Assembly (NCBI RefSeq): GCF_900182545.1
Contig: NZ_FXTJ01000002.1
Span: forward strand, 124,001-188,000
Source: Geodermatophilus aquaeductus
GTDB lineage: Bacteria; Actinomycetota; Actinomycetes; Mycobacteriales; Geodermatophilaceae
Direction: 5' to 3'
DNA: 64,000 nucleotides
A program made the translations under genes and the position numbers. This document shows positions 1 through 53,693 of the stretch, piece after piece. Numbering within the stretch: position 1 is the stretch's first letter; every line of letters starts with the position of its first letter. Under the pieces are notes generated by a model that searched no databases, was not told the DNA's origin, and saw only the letters and a list, made by a program, of their open reading frames with translations.

Positions 1-339
1 CAGGGCAACCCCCTGGCCGCCGGGCTGATCGCCTTCGGTGTCGGCTGGCTGGTGTCGAGCCTGCTGCCGGCCTCGGAGAAGGAGCGTCAGCTGGCCCAGC
101 AGGCCGAGACCACGCTGCGCGAGCACAAGGACGAGCTCCTCGCGCCGGCCAAGCAGGCCGCGCAGGAGGTCGGCGAGCAGCTCAAGCCGGCCGCCCAGCA
201 CGCCGTCGAGGAGGTCCGGGGCACCGCCACGGACGCCGCCCAGACGGTCAAGCAGGAGGGCCAGTCGGCCGCGCAGGACGTGCAGGGCCAGGCCCAGCAG
301 TCCCGCCAGACGGTGCAGAGTCAGTCCTCCAGCAGCTGA
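1..339 (+). CDS. DUF3618-like membrane-anchored protein, C-terminal part (5' truncated by window edge)
   Basis: The reading frame is already open at base 1, so the start lies upstream. The visible part begins with a hydrophobic stretch (NPLAAGLIAFGVGWLVSSLL, residues 4-23) that reads as one membrane segment. It is followed by about 85 residues of Lys/Glu/Gln/Ala-rich amphipathic helix with VKQEGQSAAQDVQ-type repeats and a Ser-rich tail. Membrane segment plus long charged helix is the usual C-terminal half of actinobacterial DUF3618 proteins, which are thought to be envelope or stress-related. The function is not known, and the N-terminal domain that would settle the family is outside the window. 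A strong hairpin follows the stop. Confidence 0.7.
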   Translation, partial: QGNPLAAGLIAFGVGWLVSSLLPASEKERQLAQQAETTLREHKDELLAPAKQAAQEVGEQLKPAAQHAVEEVRGTATDAAQTVKQEGQSAAQDVQGQAQQSRQTVQSQSSSS

Positions 340-4718: not shown

Positions 4719-5495
4719 TCAGACATGTGCCTGCCCCGTGGAGGCGCTGGTGCCGCCGTCGACGGCCAGGACCGCGCCGGTGACGTACCGGGCCTGCTCG
4801 GAGGCGAGGAAGAGCACCGCCGGGGCGATGTCCTCGGGCTCGCCGGGCCGGCCGAGCGCGACGCGGTTGACGAACGGCGCGAGCGAGGCCTCGTCGCGGG
4901 GGACGTCCTGGTTGATCTCGGTGAAGGTGAAGGCCGGCGCGACGGCGTTGAGCCGCACGCCCCGCGCGCCCCAGTCCAGCGCGAGCGACTGCACGAACAC
5001 GGTGATGGCGGCCTTGGTGGCGTTGTAGCCGGCCTGCCCCCAGTCGCCGCGCAGGCCCGACACCGAGGAGACGGCGACCAGGTTGCCGCCGGACTCGGCC
5101 AGGCGCGGCAGCGCGGCCTTGGCCAGGTGGAAGAACGCGTCGACGTTGGTGGCGCGCATCCGCTCCCACGCGTCGTCGGCGAGGTCGGTGATCTCCCCGC
5201 TCTCGTAGCCGGCGGCGTTGCTCACCACGACGTCGAGGCGGCCGAACCGGTCCACGACGTCGGCGACGACCTGCCGGACCTGCGCGGGGTCGGAGACGTC
5301 GGCCGGCAGCACCGCCGCGCGCTCGGTGGGGACGTCCTCGAGCGCGGACTCCAGCCGCTCCCGGCGCCGGCCGGTGACGGCGACGGTGGCGCCGGCGTCG
5401 ACGAAGGCCCGGGTGATGGCGAGGCCGATGCCCGAGCCGCCGCCGGTCACGAGGACGACGGAGCCGGTGAAGTCGAAGGTCGCGGAGCCGCTCAT
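4719..5495 (-). CDS. Short-chain dehydrogenase/reductase (SDR)
   Basis: 258 aa, a classical SDR. The cofactor loop TGGGSGIG (residues 17-24), structural NAAG (93-96) and the catalytic Ser144, Tyr157 and Lys161 (YNATK) are all in place. The Arg-rich end of strand 2 (GRRRERL, 42-48) favours NADP(H). The C-terminus has the usual ASEQARYVTGAVLAVDGG. The substrate is unknown. It is the first gene of a minus-strand group with the methyltransferase and acyl-CoA dehydrogenase. TAGGGC lies 6 bases upstream of ATG 5495, a leaderless-type arrangement as at other genes here, but with an imperfect final base. Confidence 0.88.
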   Translation of the reverse strand: MSGSATFDFTGSVVLVTGGGSGIGLAITRAFVDAGATVAVTGRRRERLESALEDVPTERAAVLPADVSDPAQVRQVVADVVDRFGRLDVVVSNAAGYESGEITDLADDAWERMRATNVDAFFHLAKAALPRLAESGGNLVAVSSVSGLRGDWGQAGYNATKAAITVFVQSLALDWGARGVRLNAVAPAFTFTEINQDVPRDEASLAPFVNRVALGRPGEPEDIAPAVLFLASEQARYVTGAVLAVDGGTSASTGQAHV

Positions 5496-5545
5496 GCGCC
5501 CGCCCTACCCGGCCCGTCCGCGCCACACCCGCATCGGGTCTGCGC

Positions 5546-5602
5546 CGAGACCTGCGATCTCGTGGCCATCAAGCTGCGATGGCCACGAGATCGCAGGTCT
5601 CG
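5546..5602. repeat. 25-bp perfect inverted repeat with 7-base loop
   Basis: Left arm 5546-5570 and right arm 5578-5602 are exact reverse complements (core GACCTGCGATCTCGTGGCCA); the loop is AAGCTGC. It lies in the 150-bp gap between the divergently transcribed SDR gene and the small membrane ORF, so it is not a 3' terminator for either gene. It could be a REP-like element or a cruciform/regulator site. Confidence 0.8.
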
Positions 5603-5638
5603 ATGCGGCGGGCGACCCGAGGGGCCGGCGGTTGACAC

Positions 5639-5658
5639 GTGACACTGTTCGGTGTCAC
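5639..5658. promoter_or_regulatory. Palindrome GTGACAC-N6-GTGTCAC, candidate operator
   Basis: Perfect 7-bp arms (5639-5645 and 5652-5658) around a 6-base spacer, directly ahead of the small membrane ORF. TTGACA at 5632-5637 could serve as a -35 element overlapping it, with only a weak -10 match downstream. The binding protein is unknown; LuxR and MerR genes lie nearby. Confidence 0.45.
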
Positions 5659-5675
5659 ATGGGTGCGTGTCCGCA

Positions 5676-5873
5676 GTGAGCACCTCGGCGACCGACGGGT
5701 TGAGCCTCATCGCCACCGCCGGGTTCTTCGTGCCCGCGGCGGTCCTGGTCGCCGTCGTGGTGATGGCAGTGGTCCGCGACCGGCGACTCGCCGCCCGCGA
5801 CCGCGCGGAGCACGACGGCGGGCATGAGCGGATCGGCTCCCCCGCGGCCGGCGACCGGCGGCCGGCCGGCTAG
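5676..5873 (+). CDS. Small single-pass membrane protein, hypothetical
   Basis: 65 aa from GTG 5676 (GTG 5667 and GTG 5652 are in-frame alternatives, the last lying inside the palindrome). Residues about 9-33 (LSLIATAGFFVPAAVLVAVV onward) form one clear membrane helix, followed by a basic RDRRLAARDR stretch and a hydrophilic tail, consistent with the N-terminus outside and the tail in the cytoplasm. No ribosome site is obvious. I do not recognise the family. It lies ahead of the LuxR-type regulator gene on the same strand. Confidence 0.5.
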   Translation: MSTSATDGLSLIATAGFFVPAAVLVAVVVMAVVRDRRLAARDRAEHDGGHERIGSPAAGDRRPAG

Positions 5874-17690: not shown

Positions 17691-18184
17691 CGCGCCACCT
17701 CCGCCCCCGCCGCGACCGAGGCGCCCAGCTCCCGCAGCGCGGCGGCGGCCTCCTCGCGCTCGGCCGGCGGGAAGAAGTCGCGGCGGTCGATCGCCCGCCA
17801 CTCGGCGCGCAGCCGGCGCAGCGCCCGGGCCCGCTCGGCCGGGTCGCCGGCGGCCACGGCGGCGGCGCACTCCCCGCTCAGCGACCGGTACTCCGCGGCC
17901 CGTGCGGCGGACATCGCCGCGGCCAGGTCCCGCTCCTGGGCGAGGGTGCCCGGCCGCGCCACCCAGGTGCCCGCCGTCCCGCCGGCCTCGGTCACGTCGC
18001 CGGCCAGCCACTCCAGCTGCTCGCGGGTGCGGGCGTCGGCGGGCAGCGCGACGACGCCGTCGGCGATCTGCACCACGCCCAGCCGCCTGAGCCGCCGCCA
18101 CAGCGTCGTCCGCGGGCCGGAGGGCTCCCGGGGCAGGCGGTAGCTGAGCAGCACCCACTCACCCGGGGAGGACGACGTCGCCAC
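17687..18184 (-). CDS. ChrB N-terminal-domain protein, likely chromate-responsive regulator
   Basis: 165 aa from GTG 18184. It begins WVLLSYRLPREPSGPRTTLWRRLRRLGVVQIADGV, the winged-helix-like start of ChrB (PaaX-like, R-T-x-x-W-R-x-L-R-x-L-G). The rest is helical and Arg/Ala-rich. ChrB N-domains act as transcription regulators of chrA. It is the first gene of the chromate operon, and together with the following gene makes a split ChrB. Upstream there is no clear -10, and an unrelated small membrane ORF follows. Confidence 0.82.
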   Translation of the reverse strand: MATSSSPGEWVLLSYRLPREPSGPRTTLWRRLRRLGVVQIADGVVALPADARTREQLEWLAGDVTEAGGTAGTWVARPGTLAQERDLAAAMSAARAAEYRSLSGECAAAVAAGDPAERARALRRLRAEWRAIDRRDFFPPAEREEAAAALRELGASVAAGAEVAR

Positions 18185-18241
18185 GGCGGTGATGCAACCA
18201 CGGTTGCACGGCGTCGTCCAGGCCGGGTCCCGGCCACGTCG

Positions 18242-18403
18242 TCACCCGTCCGGCCCGCCGGCACCGCCCGGACGCGGCGGCCCGCCGTGCCGGACGAGGC
18301 GCACCACCAGCCAGCCGGCCGCGGTCAGGACGGAGCAGGCGGCCAGGACGCCGAGGCCGACGACCAGCATCCCCGCGGCGACGAGAGCGACGAACTCGGC
18401 CAT
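18242..18403 (-). CDS. Small membrane protein, hypothetical
   Basis: 53 aa from ATG 18403 to TGA at 18242. A strong ribosome site CGGAGGGG lies 5-6 bases before the start. Residues about 4-35 (FVALVAAGMLVVGLGVLAAC, then SVLTAAGWLVV) make one long or two short membrane helices, followed by RLVRHGG and a Pro/Gly-rich tail. It lies between the YcnI-like gene (82 bases upstream) and chrB-N on the same strand. No family is recognised; the ribosome site plus membrane profile make it credible. Confidence 0.6.
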   Translation of the reverse strand: MAEFVALVAAGMLVVGLGVLAACSVLTAAGWLVVRLVRHGGPPRPGGAGGPDG

Positions 18404-18485
18404 CGGGCCCCTCCGGGAGGGCGGCGGACCAGGACGCTGCGCAACGCCCCCAGCATGCTCCCCCGGCGGCCCTCCGGCCCTCCGA

Positions 18486-19187
18486 TCAGGGCCGGGCCCT
18501 CCGGCGGAGGACCACGCCGGCCGTGACGGCCACGGCCACCGCCAGGACCGCCAGCAGCACGACCGTCCCGGTGCCGATGCCGCCGTCCTCGGGCGCCCCG
18601 GACCCGGCGGCGTCCGACGTCTCCGCGGCCGTCGTCGGCGCCGGGGTGTCGGTGGTCGCCGGTGCCGGGGTGGCCGACGGGGTCACCCCGGGCGGGGCCG
18701 GCGCGACGGCCAGCGCGGGCGCCGGCATCCCCGGGTCGGGCACGGCGTCGGTGACCGGCTCGATCCAGGCGTCCTCGCGCCCGTCGGCGTAGCGCTGGAC
18801 GGTCGGGAAGACCAGCTCGGTGGCGTCGGCGGGCAGCAGCGCGACGGTCACCCCGTACGCGAGGTCCTCCCCCGGGACCGTCGCCGGCCCGCTCAGCTCG
18901 AAGCCGCCGGCGATGGGTGCCAGAGCCCAGCCCTGCGGCGCCGACGCCAGGGACACCGCGCCGGGCCCGATCCCCTCGGGGAGCTGGGTGCGGACGCCGA
19001 CGATCCCCGACGTCGTCGACTCGGCCTCCGCGGAGAACAGCAGGGTCACCGGCCCGGTGCCGGCCTGCGCGGCCCCCTGCGCCGTCACCTCGACGTGGGC
19101 GAGGGCCGGTCCGGCACCGAGCAGGACCAGACCGGCGGTTGCGGCGAGGACGGCGGAGGAACGACCGACGGGGATCAGGAGGCTCAC
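18486..19187 (-). CDS. YcnI-domain (DUF1775) secreted membrane-anchored protein
   Basis: 233 aa. Signal peptide ending at PALAH, so the mature protein starts with His, which in YcnI proteins binds copper. The DUF1775 beta-sandwich runs to about residue 145 with the conserved FPTVQRYADGREDAWIEP. An Ala/Pro/Thr-rich linker (about 150-200) and a C-terminal membrane helix with RRRARP anchor it at the outer face. A second YcnI gene occurs at 34866-35588 in the copper operon. This copy is divergent from an ArsR-CDF pair. Confidence 0.85.
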   Translation of the reverse strand: MSLLIPVGRSSAVLAATAGLVLLGAGPALAHVEVTAQGAAQAGTGPVTLLFSAEAESTTSGIVGVRTQLPEGIGPGAVSLASAPQGWALAPIAGGFELSGPATVPGEDLAYGVTVALLPADATELVFPTVQRYADGREDAWIEPVTDAVPDPGMPAPALAVAPAPPGVTPSATPAPATTDTPAPTTAAETSDAAGSGAPEDGGIGTGTVVLLAVLAVAVAVTAGVVLRRRARP

Positions 19188-41847: not shown

Positions 41848-41883
41848 GAGAGGCCCCGTCCGGTTCGCCGGACGGGGCCTCTC
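41848..41883. terminator. Strong bidirectional terminator between convergent genes
   Basis: Perfect 16-bp stem (41848-41863 and 41868-41883) with a TTCG tetraloop, between the TauE gene and the convergent epimerase gene, which ends at 41890. Confidence 0.8.
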
Positions 41884-43481: not shown

Positions 43482-43642
43482 CAGCAGTCCCGCCTCCCGC
43501 TCGCGCGCCGCGGACCCGCGTCCGGGTCCACCGGACGACCGTAGGTCGGCGCGTCGCGGTGTCCCCGCGCGGCGGAGCCGGGCCTGTCGCCGCCTCCCGG
43601 CTCGCCGTCACGTCTCGTCACGGCCCGGTCACGGCCGTTCCG

Positions 43643-43664
43643 GTGCATCTCCGCGGAGATGCAC
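43643..43664. repeat. 22-bp perfect palindrome (GTGCATCTCCG and its complement)
   Basis: A perfect palindrome immediately beside the typA terminator. The same sequence recurs, duplicated head-to-head, at 52761-52807. Confidence 0.75.
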
Positions 43665-43665
43665 G

Positions 43666-43699
43666 GGAGCCCCCGTCCGGCGGACCGGACGGGGGCTCC
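43666..43699 (-). terminator. typA transcription terminator
   Basis: Perfect 15-bp stem (43666-43680 and 43685-43699) with a 4-base loop, 18 bases after the typA stop. Confidence 0.8.
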
Positions 43700-50290: not shown

Positions 50291-52759
50291 GTGCTGTCCA
50301 CCACCCTGGCGAACCTGCGCGCGCACCTGCCGCGGCTGGTCGCCGCCACGCTCGCCGTCGTCATCGCGGTCGCCTTCGTCGTCGCGACGCTGGTCCTCAA
50401 CGAGACCTCCCGCGCCACGCTGCTGCGCGCCGCGGGTGCGGAGTACGTCGGCACCGACGTCGTTGTCACCGCCGCCGACGGCTCCTCGCTGGCCGGCGCG
50501 GTCGGCGCCGTCGCGGCGGTCCCCGGCGTCCGCGCCGTCGACCCGACCACCGCCGCCGAGGTCCAGGCCCGCTTCCCCGGCCGGTCGGAGGCCTACCTGC
50601 AGGCGCAGGCCGTGGCCGCCGACCCGGCGCTGCGCTGGCAGCGGGTCACCGACGGCGCCCTCCCCGACTCCCCCGGCGAGATCGCGGTCGCGACGACGAC
50701 CGAGGCCGCGGTCGGCGACGTCGTGGCCGTCACCGTCTACGACCCCGCCACCGGCGAGGCCACCTCCACCGGCGAGGCCACCGTCACCGGCCTCGTCGAC
50801 CTCGGCGGCGACCCCAGCGCGGGGCTGTTCGCGCGCGGCTTCGCCGTCGCCGACCAGGTGGCCGCCTGGGGCGGGACCGAGCCCACCGAGCTGCGGGTCG
50901 CCGGCTGGAACCGCACCGACCCCGAGGCCCTGGCCGCGGCCGTCGCCCCCGCGCTGGGCTTCGCGGAGGTCGAGGTGCGCACCGGCGAGCAGGCCGCCGA
51001 GGACGCCGTCGCCGGCATCACCGGCAACCGGCTGGCCCTGGCCGCGGTCCTGCTCGTGTTCGCCACCGTCGCGGTCCTGGTCGCCGGGCTGGTCATCGCC
51101 AACACGCTGGCCGTGCTCGTCGCCCAGCGCACCCGCGACCTGGCGCTGCTGCGCTGCGTGGGCGCCACCTCCCGCCAGGTGCGGCGCAGCGTGCTCACCG
51201 AGGCCGCGGTCACCGGGCTGGTCGCCTCGGCGGTCGGCGTGGGCGCGGGCGTCGGGCTGGCCGCCCTGGTCTCGGCGCTGGTGGGCACCGACTCACCGCT
51301 GCCGCTCGAGGGCGTCGCCGTGCCGCTGTACGCCGTCGGCGCGGGGCTGGCGGTCGGCACGCTGACCACCCTGCTCGCCGCCCTCGGCCCTTCCCGGGGG
51401 GCCACCCGGGTGGCGCCGCTGGCCGCCCTGCGGCCGGTCGACGCCGCGCCCCTGCGCAGCCGCGGCGGGCTGCTGCGGTTCGGCGCCGGGCTGCTCCTCG
51501 TGCTCGGCGGCGCGGCCCTGATGGCGCTGGGCGTGCTGACGGTGAACGTCTACGCGTCGCTGGCCGGCGGCACCGCGAGCTTCCTCGGCGTGGTGCTGCT
51601 CGCGCAGCGGGCGGTGCCGCCGGTGGTGGCCGCCGCCGGGCGGGCGCTGGGCCGCGTCGGTGGCGTCCCCGGCCGGATGGCCGCGGGCAACGCCTCCCGC
51701 AACCCGCGCCGGACCGCGGCGACGGCGACGGCGCTGCTCATCGGCGTCACGCTGACCACCGCGATGGTCGTGGGCGCGGCCTCCACCCGGGCCACCGCGC
51801 AGGCCGGCCTGGACGCCGCCTACCCCGCCGACGTCGAGATCGGCGCGTACGGCGAGCTGCCGGCGTCGCTGCTGCCGCGGCTGGAGGACGTCGACGGCGT
51901 GGCCGGCGGGACGGCGCTGCTGGGCGTGGACGTGACCGCGCCGGACGGGCAGCCGCTGTGGGTGCAGGGCGTGGACGCCGCGGCGGCGACGCCGGTGCTG
52001 CGCAGCACCGCCGACCTGACGCTGCCCGCGTTCGGCGAGGCCGTGCTGCCGCAGTGGGCCGCCGACTCCTACGGCCTGCGGACCGGTCAGACGCTGACCC
52101 TGCAGGCCGGCGAGCGCAGCCGGGCGCTGACCGTCGTCGTGGGCGACACCGGCCTGGGCACGCCGCTGCTCTCGACGGCCGACCTGCGGGCGCTCGTGCC
52201 CGACGCGACGGCGGCCACGCTGTGGCTGCGCCTCGACGACGGCGCCGGCCAGCGCGACGCCATCGAGGAGGTCACCGAGCTGACCGGCGCGGCGGTCCCC
52301 GACGCCTACGTCACCGGCCTGGCCAGCGAGCGCGCGGCGATCGACTCGGTCCTCGACGCGCTGCTGCTGGTGGTCACCGGCCTGCTCGGCGTCGCGGTGC
52401 TCATCGCGCTGATCGGCGTGGGCAACACGCTGGCGCTGTCGGTGGTCGAGCGGCGGCAGGAGAACGGCCTGCTGCGGGCGATGGGGCTCACCCGGGGGCA
52501 GCTGCGCGCGCTGCTGGCGTGGGAGGCGGTGCTGGTCGCCGGCGTGGCCGCGGTGCTCGGCGTGCTGCTCGGCGGCGCGTACGGGCTGATCGGGACGGCG
52601 TCGGTGCTCGGCGGGCAGGACACGGTGCTGCTCGACGTCCCGTGGCTGCAGGTGGGCGGCATCGTCGTCGTCGCGACCGTGGCCGGGCTGCTCGCCTCGG
52701 TGCTGCCGGCCCGCCGGGCGGCCCGCACCGCCCCGGTCGCCGCCATCGCGGCGGTCTGA
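50291..52759 (+). CDS. FtsX/MacB-type ABC permease (fused double unit)
   Basis: 822 aa from GTG 50291. Two FtsX units in one chain: N-terminal helix (about 14-38), a large periplasmic domain (about 40-235), three helices (about 245-360 with VAQRTRDLALLRCVGATSRQ), two linking helices (about 395-440), then a second external domain (about 500-670) and three final helices (VERRQENGLLRAMGLTRGQL). The repeated Arg-x-Arg-[ED]-x-[AG]-LLRAxG element couples to the ATPase. It may export a lipophilic compound or antimicrobial under control of the upstream two-component system. Confidence 0.92.
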   Translation: MLSTTLANLRAHLPRLVAATLAVVIAVAFVVATLVLNETSRATLLRAAGAEYVGTDVVVTAADGSSLAGAVGAVAAVPGVRAVDPTTAAEVQARFPGRSEAYLQAQAVAADPALRWQRVTDGALPDSPGEIAVATTTEAAVGDVVAVTVYDPATGEATSTGEATVTGLVDLGGDPSAGLFARGFAVADQVAAWGGTEPTELRVAGWNRTDPEALAAAVAPALGFAEVEVRTGEQAAEDAVAGITGNRLALAAVLLVFATVAVLVAGLVIANTLAVLVAQRTRDLALLRCVGATSRQVRRSVLTEAAVTGLVASAVGVGAGVGLAALVSALVGTDSPLPLEGVAVPLYAVGAGLAVGTLTTLLAALGPSRGATRVAPLAALRPVDAAPLRSRGGLLRFGAGLLLVLGGAALMALGVLTVNVYASLAGGTASFLGVVLLAQRAVPPVVAAAGRALGRVGGVPGRMAAGNASRNPRRTAATATALLIGVTLTTAMVVGAASTRATAQAGLDAAYPADVEIGAYGELPASLLPRLEDVDGVAGGTALLGVDVTAPDGQPLWVQGVDAAAATPVLRSTADLTLPAFGEAVLPQWAADSYGLRTGQTLTLQAGERSRALTVVVGDTGLGTPLLSTADLRALVPDATAATLWLRLDDGAGQRDAIEEVTELTGAAVPDAYVTGLASERAAIDSVLDALLLVVTGLLGVAVLIALIGVGNTLALSVVERRQENGLLRAMGLTRGQLRALLAWEAVLVAGVAAVLGVLLGGAYGLIGTASVLGGQDTVLLDVPWLQVGGIVVVATVAGLLASVLPARRAARTAPVAAIAAV

Positions 52760-52760
52760 G

Positions 52761-52807
52761 CGCGCACTTCCGCGGAGATGCACCGTGCATCTCCGCGGAG
52801 GTGCGCG
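52761..52807. repeat. Head-to-head duplicated palindrome, 23-bp arms with one mismatch
   Basis: Left arm 52761-52783, right arm 52785-52807, one base between. Each arm contains the TCCGCGGA core, and the centre repeats the palindrome seen at 43643-43664. It fills the whole gap between the permease stop (52759) and the convergent enoyl-CoA hydratase stop (52809), and may terminate both transcripts. Confidence 0.75.
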
Positions 52808-52808
52808 G

Positions 52809-53693
52809 TCAGGAGGTGACGTCGTCCGGGGGCAGCGGCCAGCGCGGCACGCCGGCCACCGCGCCGCTGCCGAGCGGTGCGCGGAACTCCGCGGGCCGCT
52901 TGGCGAGGAAGGCCGCGACGCCCTCCGCGGCGTCGGGACCGCTGCCGAGCTCGGCCAGCGCCCGCGACTCGACGCGGTGGGCGTCCCACGGCGAGGACGC
53001 GCCGAGCATCGACCAGAGCATCTGCCGGGCCGCGGCGACGGCCACCCCGGAGGTGTTGTCGGCGATCTCGTGGGCCAGCTCGAGCGCGGTGGGCAGCAGG
53101 TCGGCGTCGGGGACGACCCGGCTGACCAGCCGCCCGCGCAGCGCCTCGGCGGCGCCGAACACCCGCCCGGTGGCCACCCACTCCATCGCCTGGCTGATGC
53201 CGACCACCCGCGGCAGGAACCACGACGACGCCGCCTCGGGCGTGATGCCGCGGCGGGCGAAGACGAAGCCGAAGCGCGCCGACTCCGCCGCGATCCGCAC
53301 GTCCATCGGCAGGACCATCGTCGCGCCGATGCCGACCGCCGGGCCGTTGACCGCGGCGATGACCGGCTTGCGCAGCGCGGCGAAGGGCAGCGACGCGACG
53401 CCGCCCCAGTCCCGCGCCACGCCGTCGACGGTCCCCTGCACCGGCGGCCCCTCGGCGCGGCCGCGGTCGGCGAAGGTCCCCGAGCCCGCGCCGAGGTCGG
53501 CGCCGGCGCAGAACGCCCGCCCGGCCCCGGTGACGACGACGGCGCGCACCGCCTCGTCGGCGTCCGCGGCCGCCGCGGCCCGCCCCAGCTCGCCGGCCAT
53601 GACCGGCGTGAACGCGTTGAGCCGGTCCGGCCGGTCGAGGGTGATCGTGGCGACGCCGTCGGCGACCTCGTACCGCAGTTGGGGAGGGCTCAC
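52809..53693 (-). CDS. Enoyl-CoA hydratase/isomerase-family protein
   Basis: 294 aa from GTG 53693. Crotonase fold: VATITLDRPDRLNAFTPVMA, VVVTGAGRAFCAGADL (oxyanion hole), KPVIAAVNGPAVGIGATMVL, then RFGFVFARRGITPEAASSWF, where Glu in ITPEA is at the catalytic position. It hydrates 2-enoyl-CoA in beta-oxidation. It is the third gene of an operon with two acyl-CoA dehydrogenases, overlapping the second by 4 bases. Confidence 0.92.
   Translation of the reverse strand: MSPPQLRYEVADGVATITLDRPDRLNAFTPVMAGELGRAAAAADADEAVRAVVVTGAGRAFCAGADLGAGSGTFADRGRAEGPPVQGTVDGVARDWGGVASLPFAALRKPVIAAVNGPAVGIGATMVLPMDVRIAAESARFGFVFARRGITPEAASSWFLPRVVGISQAMEWVATGRVFGAAEALRGRLVSRVVPDADLLPTALELAHEIADNTSGVAVAAARQMLWSMLGASSPWDAHRVESRALAELGSGPDAAEGVAAFLAKRPAEFRAPLGSGAVAGVPRWPLPPDDVTS

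Follow-up and report, generated by a model that had tools for sequence, protein, structure and literature searches.

The stretch of DNA analysed here, referred to as the window, comprises 64,000 nucleotides of Geodermatophilus aquaeductus (contig NZ_FXTJ01000002.1, positions 124,001 to 188,000). The element in question is a long palindrome at positions 5546-5602, in the following called the window hairpin, which is one copy of a family of scattered repeats. The results presented below suggest that this scattered repeat and a nuclease gene of the genus belong together. An earlier note on the same DNA had described a perfect 25-bp inverted repeat with a 7-base loop, located between divergent genes and not downstream of any gene. 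Both the structure, in which 25 of 25 arm positions are complementary, and the setting, between a short-chain dehydrogenase (SDR) gene and an open reading frame (ORF), were confirmed (Table 1).

Table 1. Positions of the window hairpin, its surroundings and the further copies in the same genome
Feature	Position	Strand	Remark
Left arm of the palindrome	5546-5570	no strand	
Loop, 7 nt	5571-5577	no strand	
Right arm of the palindrome (GATGGCCACGAGATCGCAGGTCTCG)	5578-5602	no strand	
Stretch without homology in relative G017	5511-5616	no strand	
SDR gene adjoining the palindrome	4719-5495	minus	context; Pfam
68-aa ORF on the other side	5667-5873	plus	context; no Pfam match
Further copy, C10	C10:28036		
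Further copy, C6	C6:37706		
Further copy, C3	C3:21227		

Among the 25 longest of the 69 close inverted repeats of the window, the window hairpin is the longest pair with full complementarity. The folding energy of positions 5530-5620 was calculated to be −71.2 kcal/mol, while 200 dinucleotide shuffles of the segment gave −37.6 kcal/mol (standard deviation 3.5; z = −9.7), none of them being as low as the native sequence. A chance origin of the hairpin was rejected on the basis of these energies and of the other copies in the genome. The sole match to a known RNA family at the element, MIR839, reached 26.4 bits where the gathering score is 200, and was taken as chance.

A dispersed palindrome family

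The whole-genome search for the 25-bp arm that the earlier note had asked for was carried out in the genome containing the window (G000; 28 contigs, 5.43 Mb). With up to 3 mismatches allowed, the arm was found at four places, at three of them as an arm pair, and nowhere else in that genome. A DNA search returned the same four places as whole palindromes, with E 2e-5 or better. The copy at C10 is missing from the aligned site of the close relatives G017 and G001. At the window site, the hairpin of G000 lies in a stretch of 106 bp, in place of which G017 has 938 bp holding an arginase-family gene; the spacing in G001 and G010 is similar. The window copy has probably arrived on this lineage, at the place where G017 has the arginase-family gene.

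The earlier note had taken the absence of any other copy, together with variability among close relatives, as speaking against an element that is used or mobile in the manner of a repetitive extragenic palindrome (REP) or a miniature inverted-repeat transposable element (MITE). The first half of this pair fails, since other copies exist; the 12 SDR-region loci fetched from relatives contain no palindrome of this size. Its proposal is right in kind, this being a dispersed palindromic family with copies missing at aligned sites, but wrong if REP is understood as something moved by a RAYT transposase, as discussed below.

We then considered a set of 26 Geodermatophilus genomes. A covariance model, R1, built from 11 palindrome copies gave matches in all 26 at a threshold of E 0.01, in G010 by one weak match only (E 0.005). 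The counts per genome are lower bounds, with 150 candidates scored in each, and every palindrome is counted on both strands. The palindromes of the genus were found to have the same layout as the window hairpin and different arm sequences. Over the GTDB collection, the exact palindrome pattern gave 26 stretches, of which 24 are from Geodermatophilus, Blastococcus, Modestobacter and Trujillonella; the other two, from Armatimonadota, look by eye like coding DNA without the arms of the family and were set aside.

A palindrome scan of the loci yielded 144 candidates, 13 of which were removed by eye, leaving 131 copies for the counts, including 8 that flank nuclease genes. The loop has 7 nt in 101 of the 131. 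The outer CGAG/CTCG is nearly constant and inner ends of the TGGCCATC kind are common, and the sequence in the middle of the arms varies among copies, mostly in both arms together. In the first 11 copies the base pairs are kept, yet the covariation was not above that of shuffles. Genomes differ in their favoured types, examples being GGCGCTCTC in G007, GGCGGTCTC in G016, GACG(A/G)AC-like in G015 and G041, and TGCGATCTC in Modestobacter.

The gene context of the copies was obtained with a home-made gene finder. Outside the sites C6 and C3 there are 102 copies, with 51 between co-directional genes, 37 between convergent and 10 between divergent ones; of the others, 2 are located inside genes and 2 at edges. 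For 88 of the 102 copies an adjacent gene 3' end is available, and in 66 of the 88 the distance to the stop codon does not exceed 30 bp; the promoter-gap setting of the window copy is therefore atypical for the family. An unbiased census of 2.0 Mb from nine genomes gave 26 palindromes, 13 of which passed the score cut. Only four were by eye family-like (two in G000 and one each in G012 and G019), which is too few for a test.

The palindromes and the nuclease gene

Four pairs of palindromes lie 993-1000 bp apart and frame homologous genes. The encoded proteins are AbiEi-like in their N-terminal part and contain DUF559 in their C-terminal part, the match to DUF559 being above the cut-off and that to MTES_1575 below it. 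In a profile search of the genus, this nuclease subfamily is sharply separated, with 23 genes above 415 bits and the next one below 170. The 23 genes are distributed over 21 of the 26 genomes, and no gene was found in G005, G010, G014, G018 and G041. Four of the 26 stretches that had been found by the palindrome pattern alone hold the nuclease gene (Geodermatophilus, Modestobacter, Trujillonella, Blastococcus), and the gene-bearing loci of Modestobacter, Blastococcus and Trujillonella have the same layout.

The best palindrome with 25-bp arms upstream of the gene beats all 200 shuffles in 21 of the 23 cases (all except G001 and G023), and the best downstream one in 20 (all except G006, G008 and G023). 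The downstream palindrome is located 2-22 bases from the end of the match in all 23 genes. When 400 control genes are used for comparison, leaving out the row of the G007 pseudogene, the repeat common to both flanks exceeds every control in 20 of the 23 genes and 398 of the 400 in the other three (G000, G008 and G023). In addition, a CTGTGGAC box is located 49-58 bp ahead of the aligned start in 21 genes, with TTGTGGAC upstream of the other two; the box occurs in 4 of the 400 controls. As to the genes themselves, that of G013 (L338) has an internal TAG, and in G006 (L335) the frame extends past the usual end through the downstream palindrome. No AbiEii toxin gene was recognised by eye next to the nuclease at four loci, no profile search for the toxin having been made.

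Eighteen of the 23 nuclease genes stand directly ahead of a gene that we take to be purS (this name, like purC, hydrolase and tad, was read from the sequences by eye). Nine loci were viewed at this site; in four of them (G013, G010, G003 and G022) no purC end was found. In G014, G041 and G005, three of the five genomes without the nuclease gene, a solo palindrome was found ahead of purS, by eye of types that frame nucleases in other genomes. No palindrome is present there in G018, which also lacks the gene, or in G012, where the nuclease is located elsewhere. The unit at the purS site of G000 (G000:C1:437320-438530; L343, L377) has the palindrome type GATCnCGTGATCTCG, unlike its relatives G001 and G017, as if whole units had been exchanged.

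For the protein of G011 a structural model was examined. The prediction is good for residues 111-220 and 241-270 (blocks of 72-93 in the predicted local distance difference test, pLDDT) and poor for residues 221-240 (37-47). The most probable folds according to Foldseek are the homing endonuclease I-Bth0305I (3r3p; probability 0.98, E 0.26) and Vsr (1cw0; 0.95, E 0.26). Among solved structures, the closest by sequence is that of the endonuclease-like protein 3hrl (E 1e-4).

The palindrome type follows the nuclease and not the species. Palindrome distance was found to correlate with nuclease distance over 23 genes (Mantel r = 0.64, p = 1e-4), while the correlation with species distance, taken from one short locus, is r = 0.10 (p = 0.10), and the partial r for the nuclease is again 0.64. 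With the types named by eye, type changes number 7 on the nuclease tree, which is the minimum for 8 types (26 genes); the species tree (19 genomes) requires 12. Since a gene and its flanks are linked, a stronger test is provided by copies away from the gene. For this, the 8 nuclease-flanking copies were left out and those at C6 and C3 kept; the test covers 102 copies from 20 genomes. Their similarity to the palindromes of the own nuclease is 0.526, compared to 0.368 for those of other genomes (p = 5e-5).

We now turn to two sites that are shared between genomes and at which the palindrome is retained with a changing sequence. At C6, it forms an in-frame part of an open reading frame, within the linker between CydD (residues 147-662) and CydC (residues 710-1225; NCBIfam) of a fused CydDC protein. 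The cydDC linker is exactly 57 nt long in 22 of 23 orthologs. With the sites found by synteny, arms from the same species form 14.6 of 20 pairs, compared to 10.7 for arms combined across species (p = 5e-5), and 12 or fewer arm pairs are present in 6 of the 23 orthologs. At C3, the element is located ahead of the start of a minus-strand gene; it is present in 20 of the 26 genomes and missing in 6, and the corresponding values, also for sites found by synteny, are 16.7 and 11.7 (p = 5e-5).

It was also examined whether copies at these sites are closer to the other copies of their own genome or to the same site elsewhere, for the genomes having another copy (10 of 13 for C6 and 13 of 16 for C3). 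At C6 the distances are 0.168 and 0.308, respectively (p = 1e-4, 10 genomes); at C3 the effect is weaker, with 0.258 and 0.388 (p = 0.009, 13 genomes). By eye, the close relatives G017 and G001 have a C6 type other than that of G000.

Nine other DUF559-type genes were considered as well. A significant repeat common to both flanks was found in three, from G016 (L355) and G005 (L351), with p = 0.0075 each, and from G018, where the gene (the central one of L348) lies between two long palindromes that are almost identical and has a shared-repeat score above all 400 controls. The CTGTGGAC box is present in six of the nine. Separately, a second dispersed palindrome family, GTGCATCTCCGCGGAGATGCAC-like, was observed at window positions 43631-43676 and 52756-52812. 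A frameshifted DUF559-type gene in the relative G007 (L385, about 17770-18720) has, by eye, palindromes of this second family on both sides, with the same CTGTGGACGACG box.

Interpretation and alternative explanations

On the basis of these results we consider the pairing of nuclease and palindrome very probable. The best overall explanation, which we regard as fairly likely, is that the palindrome is the dispersed cognate site of a homing-like nuclease, a system that would work like REPIN/RAYT with another enzyme. For the narrower proposition that the nuclease itself drives the copying of the palindromes, the chances appear to us about even. The family, its position at the flanks of the gene, the co-variation, the solo copies ahead of purS and the sequence change at the shared sites were all computed directly.

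The full unit would consist of a palindrome, the CTGTGGAC box, the AbiEi-like/DUF559 nuclease gene and a second palindrome, and the window hairpin would be a non-autonomous dispersed copy. One AbiEi-like N-terminal half probably binds each 25-bp arm, that is, two molecules per palindrome. The Vsr/EDxHD-like half would then nick or cut at or near the palindrome, and repair would copy the palindrome, at times the whole unit, to or between sites, and thereby homogenise the palindromes. Loss of the gene from between two palindromes would leave a solo copy. Such a scheme of binding, cutting and repair would explain the dispersal, the likeness of copies within a genome and the change of type at shared sites.

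For the binding step there is a parallel among known proteins. A pair of 23-bp inverted repeats separated by 3 bp is bound by AbiEi from Streptococcus agalactiae, which acts as a repressor of its own promoter, and Rv2827c, which also autoregulates, binds two such inverted-repeat pairs (PMC7319586). By analogy, the geometry of the AbiEi operator appears close to the 25-7-25 palindrome. The suggestion of the earlier note that the palindrome is protein-binding is plausible, given that such palindromes frame a nuclease gene whose product is AbiEi-like in its N-terminal part.

It is important to point out that a number of results weigh against this explanation. Binding, cutting and copying are what we infer. 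Because the flanks are linked to the gene, the Mantel test and the tree counts alone are no proof of specificity. The unlinked copies, in turn, came largely from a one-type model, with genome relatedness uncontrolled, and the type of the own nuclease ranks first in only 8 of the 20 genomes. In the window's genome the match fails altogether (rank 16 of 20). The window copy is therefore an orphan of type ACCTGCGATCTCGTGG, no nuclease of this type having been found in G000. A 400-kb sample of this genome contains two more copies of the family, and these resemble the type of another genome's nuclease. Model R1 gives matches in all five genomes without the gene, from at least 1 to 48 when counted on both strands, and no clear target duplication was seen at the one empty site that was aligned (C10).

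The framing is also less uniform by other measures. A stricter palindrome scan finds both flanks in 8 of the 23 genes, one flank in 8 and none in 7, weaker palindromes being visible at the same places when the flanks of the rest are read. Taken by itself, the inverted repeat ranks within the top 5% of the 400 controls upstream in 21 of 23 genes and downstream in 10; the poor distinction downstream is due to ordinary genes often having 3' hairpins. Six of the nine other DUF559-type genes have no significant repeat common to their flanks. Regarding the fold, the mean pLDDT of the G011 model is 65.7 overall, the top Foldseek matches by E are two mitoribosome chains (0.037 and 0.08), and no match reaches E 0.001.

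Several alternatives were considered. The one that survives best, which we nevertheless find unlikely, is that the palindromes are the operator of the nuclease gene, used for AbiEi-type autorepression, together with a terminator, and that the dispersed copies stem from former positions of the gene or from passive recombination, with no copying by the nuclease. It would agree with the autoregulation of AbiEi and Rv2827c through promoter inverted repeats (PMC7319586), with the near-fixed place of the upstream palindrome and with the solo copies ahead of purS, which fit gene loss. It accounts less well for the downstream copy close behind all 23 genes and for copies at many different gene ends, and the in-frame sequence change within cydDC is difficult to understand if no active copying takes place. 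Operator use and mobility do not exclude each other.

Another option, somewhat less probable still, is that the different types found at one site result from independent insertions at hot spots rather than from sequence change in old insertions. The absence of the C3 copy in 6 of the 26 genomes and of the C10 copy in two close relatives would be in line with this, but the constant length of the cydDC linker speaks against it, since it holds also for 5 of the 6 orthologs with few arm pairs.

We judge it improbable that the hairpin is a transcription terminator or stabiliser of mRNA 3' ends, with selection acting on the structure. The stop-codon proximity of the 66 copies, the 37 of 102 between convergent genes and the very stable fold of the window hairpin agree with this scenario; the window copy between divergent genes, the C3 copies ahead of a gene start and the C6 copies in an open frame do not. 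Moreover, copies of one genome have arm sequences in common, beyond structure.

Finally, a REP or REPIN mobilised by a RAYT from elsewhere is largely refuted and was rejected, for in spite of the resemblance to REPINs as an inverted doublet, by eye with a small quasi-palindrome in each arm (PMC3116915), PF01797 (Y1_Tnp) was found in none of the 26 genomes by a search that was positive in 5 of 14 control genomes, GTAG is missing from the consensus of 11 copies, and the palindromes are carried by a different enzyme gene.

Returning to the explanation by a homing-like nuclease, one can speculate about a wider class of selfish elements, in which each AbiEi-like/DUF559 (EDxHD/Vsr-like) nuclease gene is framed by a long palindrome of its own. 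The nucleases would scatter solo copies of it and, by cutting these and forcing gene conversion, drive their concerted evolution. There may be several independent nuclease/palindrome pairs, as suggested by the second palindrome family of the window with the frameshifted gene in G007 and by the DUF559-type gene of G018. We put this forward tentatively, at slightly worse than even chances. If true, this class could supply the missing enzyme for REP-like repeats without RAYTs. In the present case, an enzyme of a different class travels and changes with REP-like palindromes; the two constitute a testable protein-DNA pair, and the approximately eight linked types a natural series for how AbiEi-like domains read DNA. 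The concerted change of dispersed sites reaches even an in-frame stretch of a conserved gene, and DUF559, whose function is still listed as unknown by Pfam, would obtain a possible role.

Related systems and further observations

The closest working analogue is REPIN/RAYT (REPtrons); neither the enzyme nor the tag by which it is defined was found here. In both cases short palindromes form inverted doublets that make up one hairpin and are dispersed outside genes, and the enzyme gene has its own palindromes, with which it varies together (PMC3116915, PMC8266576). The differences are that the enzyme here is AbiEi-like/DUF559 and not a Y1/HUH transposase, that there are few copies per genome, and that the consensus contains no GTAG. 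CGTC-tagged REPs likewise are palindromes of the REP kind that lack a RAYT, and their means of movement was left unanswered (PMC3733652). Unlike these, the present palindromes end in CGAG/CTCG, with CGTC across the left edge in only 3 of 11 copies, and they are linked to a nuclease. Neither Actinobacteria nor Geodermatophilus is mentioned by name in the main text of PMC3733652.

With AbiEi antitoxins and their operators the present system shares the AbiEi-like N-terminal half and two 23-25 bp inverted repeats that lie upstream of the gene and are separated by a short spacer (PMC7319586); here, however, this half is fused to a nuclease domain, and the palindromes are also found downstream and dispersed. 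The C-terminal half is like EDxHD/Vsr-type nucleases (I-Bth0305I, Vsr) in its predicted fold, and unlike them the protein has the extra AbiEi-like half, its gene is framed by whole palindromes and its homing is putative. In the comparison with MITEs, the palindrome ends match the nuclease unit. In Rickettsia palindromic elements, a palindromic repeat is tolerated in frame inside a gene; by this description they are like the in-frame repeat of the cydDC linker, with the difference that one conserved in-frame site is involved here. These elements are named in PMC3733652.

As judged by the titles and abstract openings of open-licence papers, a pairing of DUF559 nuclease and palindrome was not found described, nor was one found for repeats of Geodermatophilaceae or Geodermatophilus.

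A few further features were noted. In locus L015, positions 94-206 (minus strand) match a thiamine pyrophosphate (TPP) riboswitch above its gathering score. In the window, ordinary terminator-like inverted repeats are present at 359-407 and 41848-41883. Ahead of the 68-aa ORF, positions 5632-5658 contain TTGACA followed by an operator-like dyad, GTGACAC-TGTTCG-GTGTCAC, and a similar sequence is present in G017.
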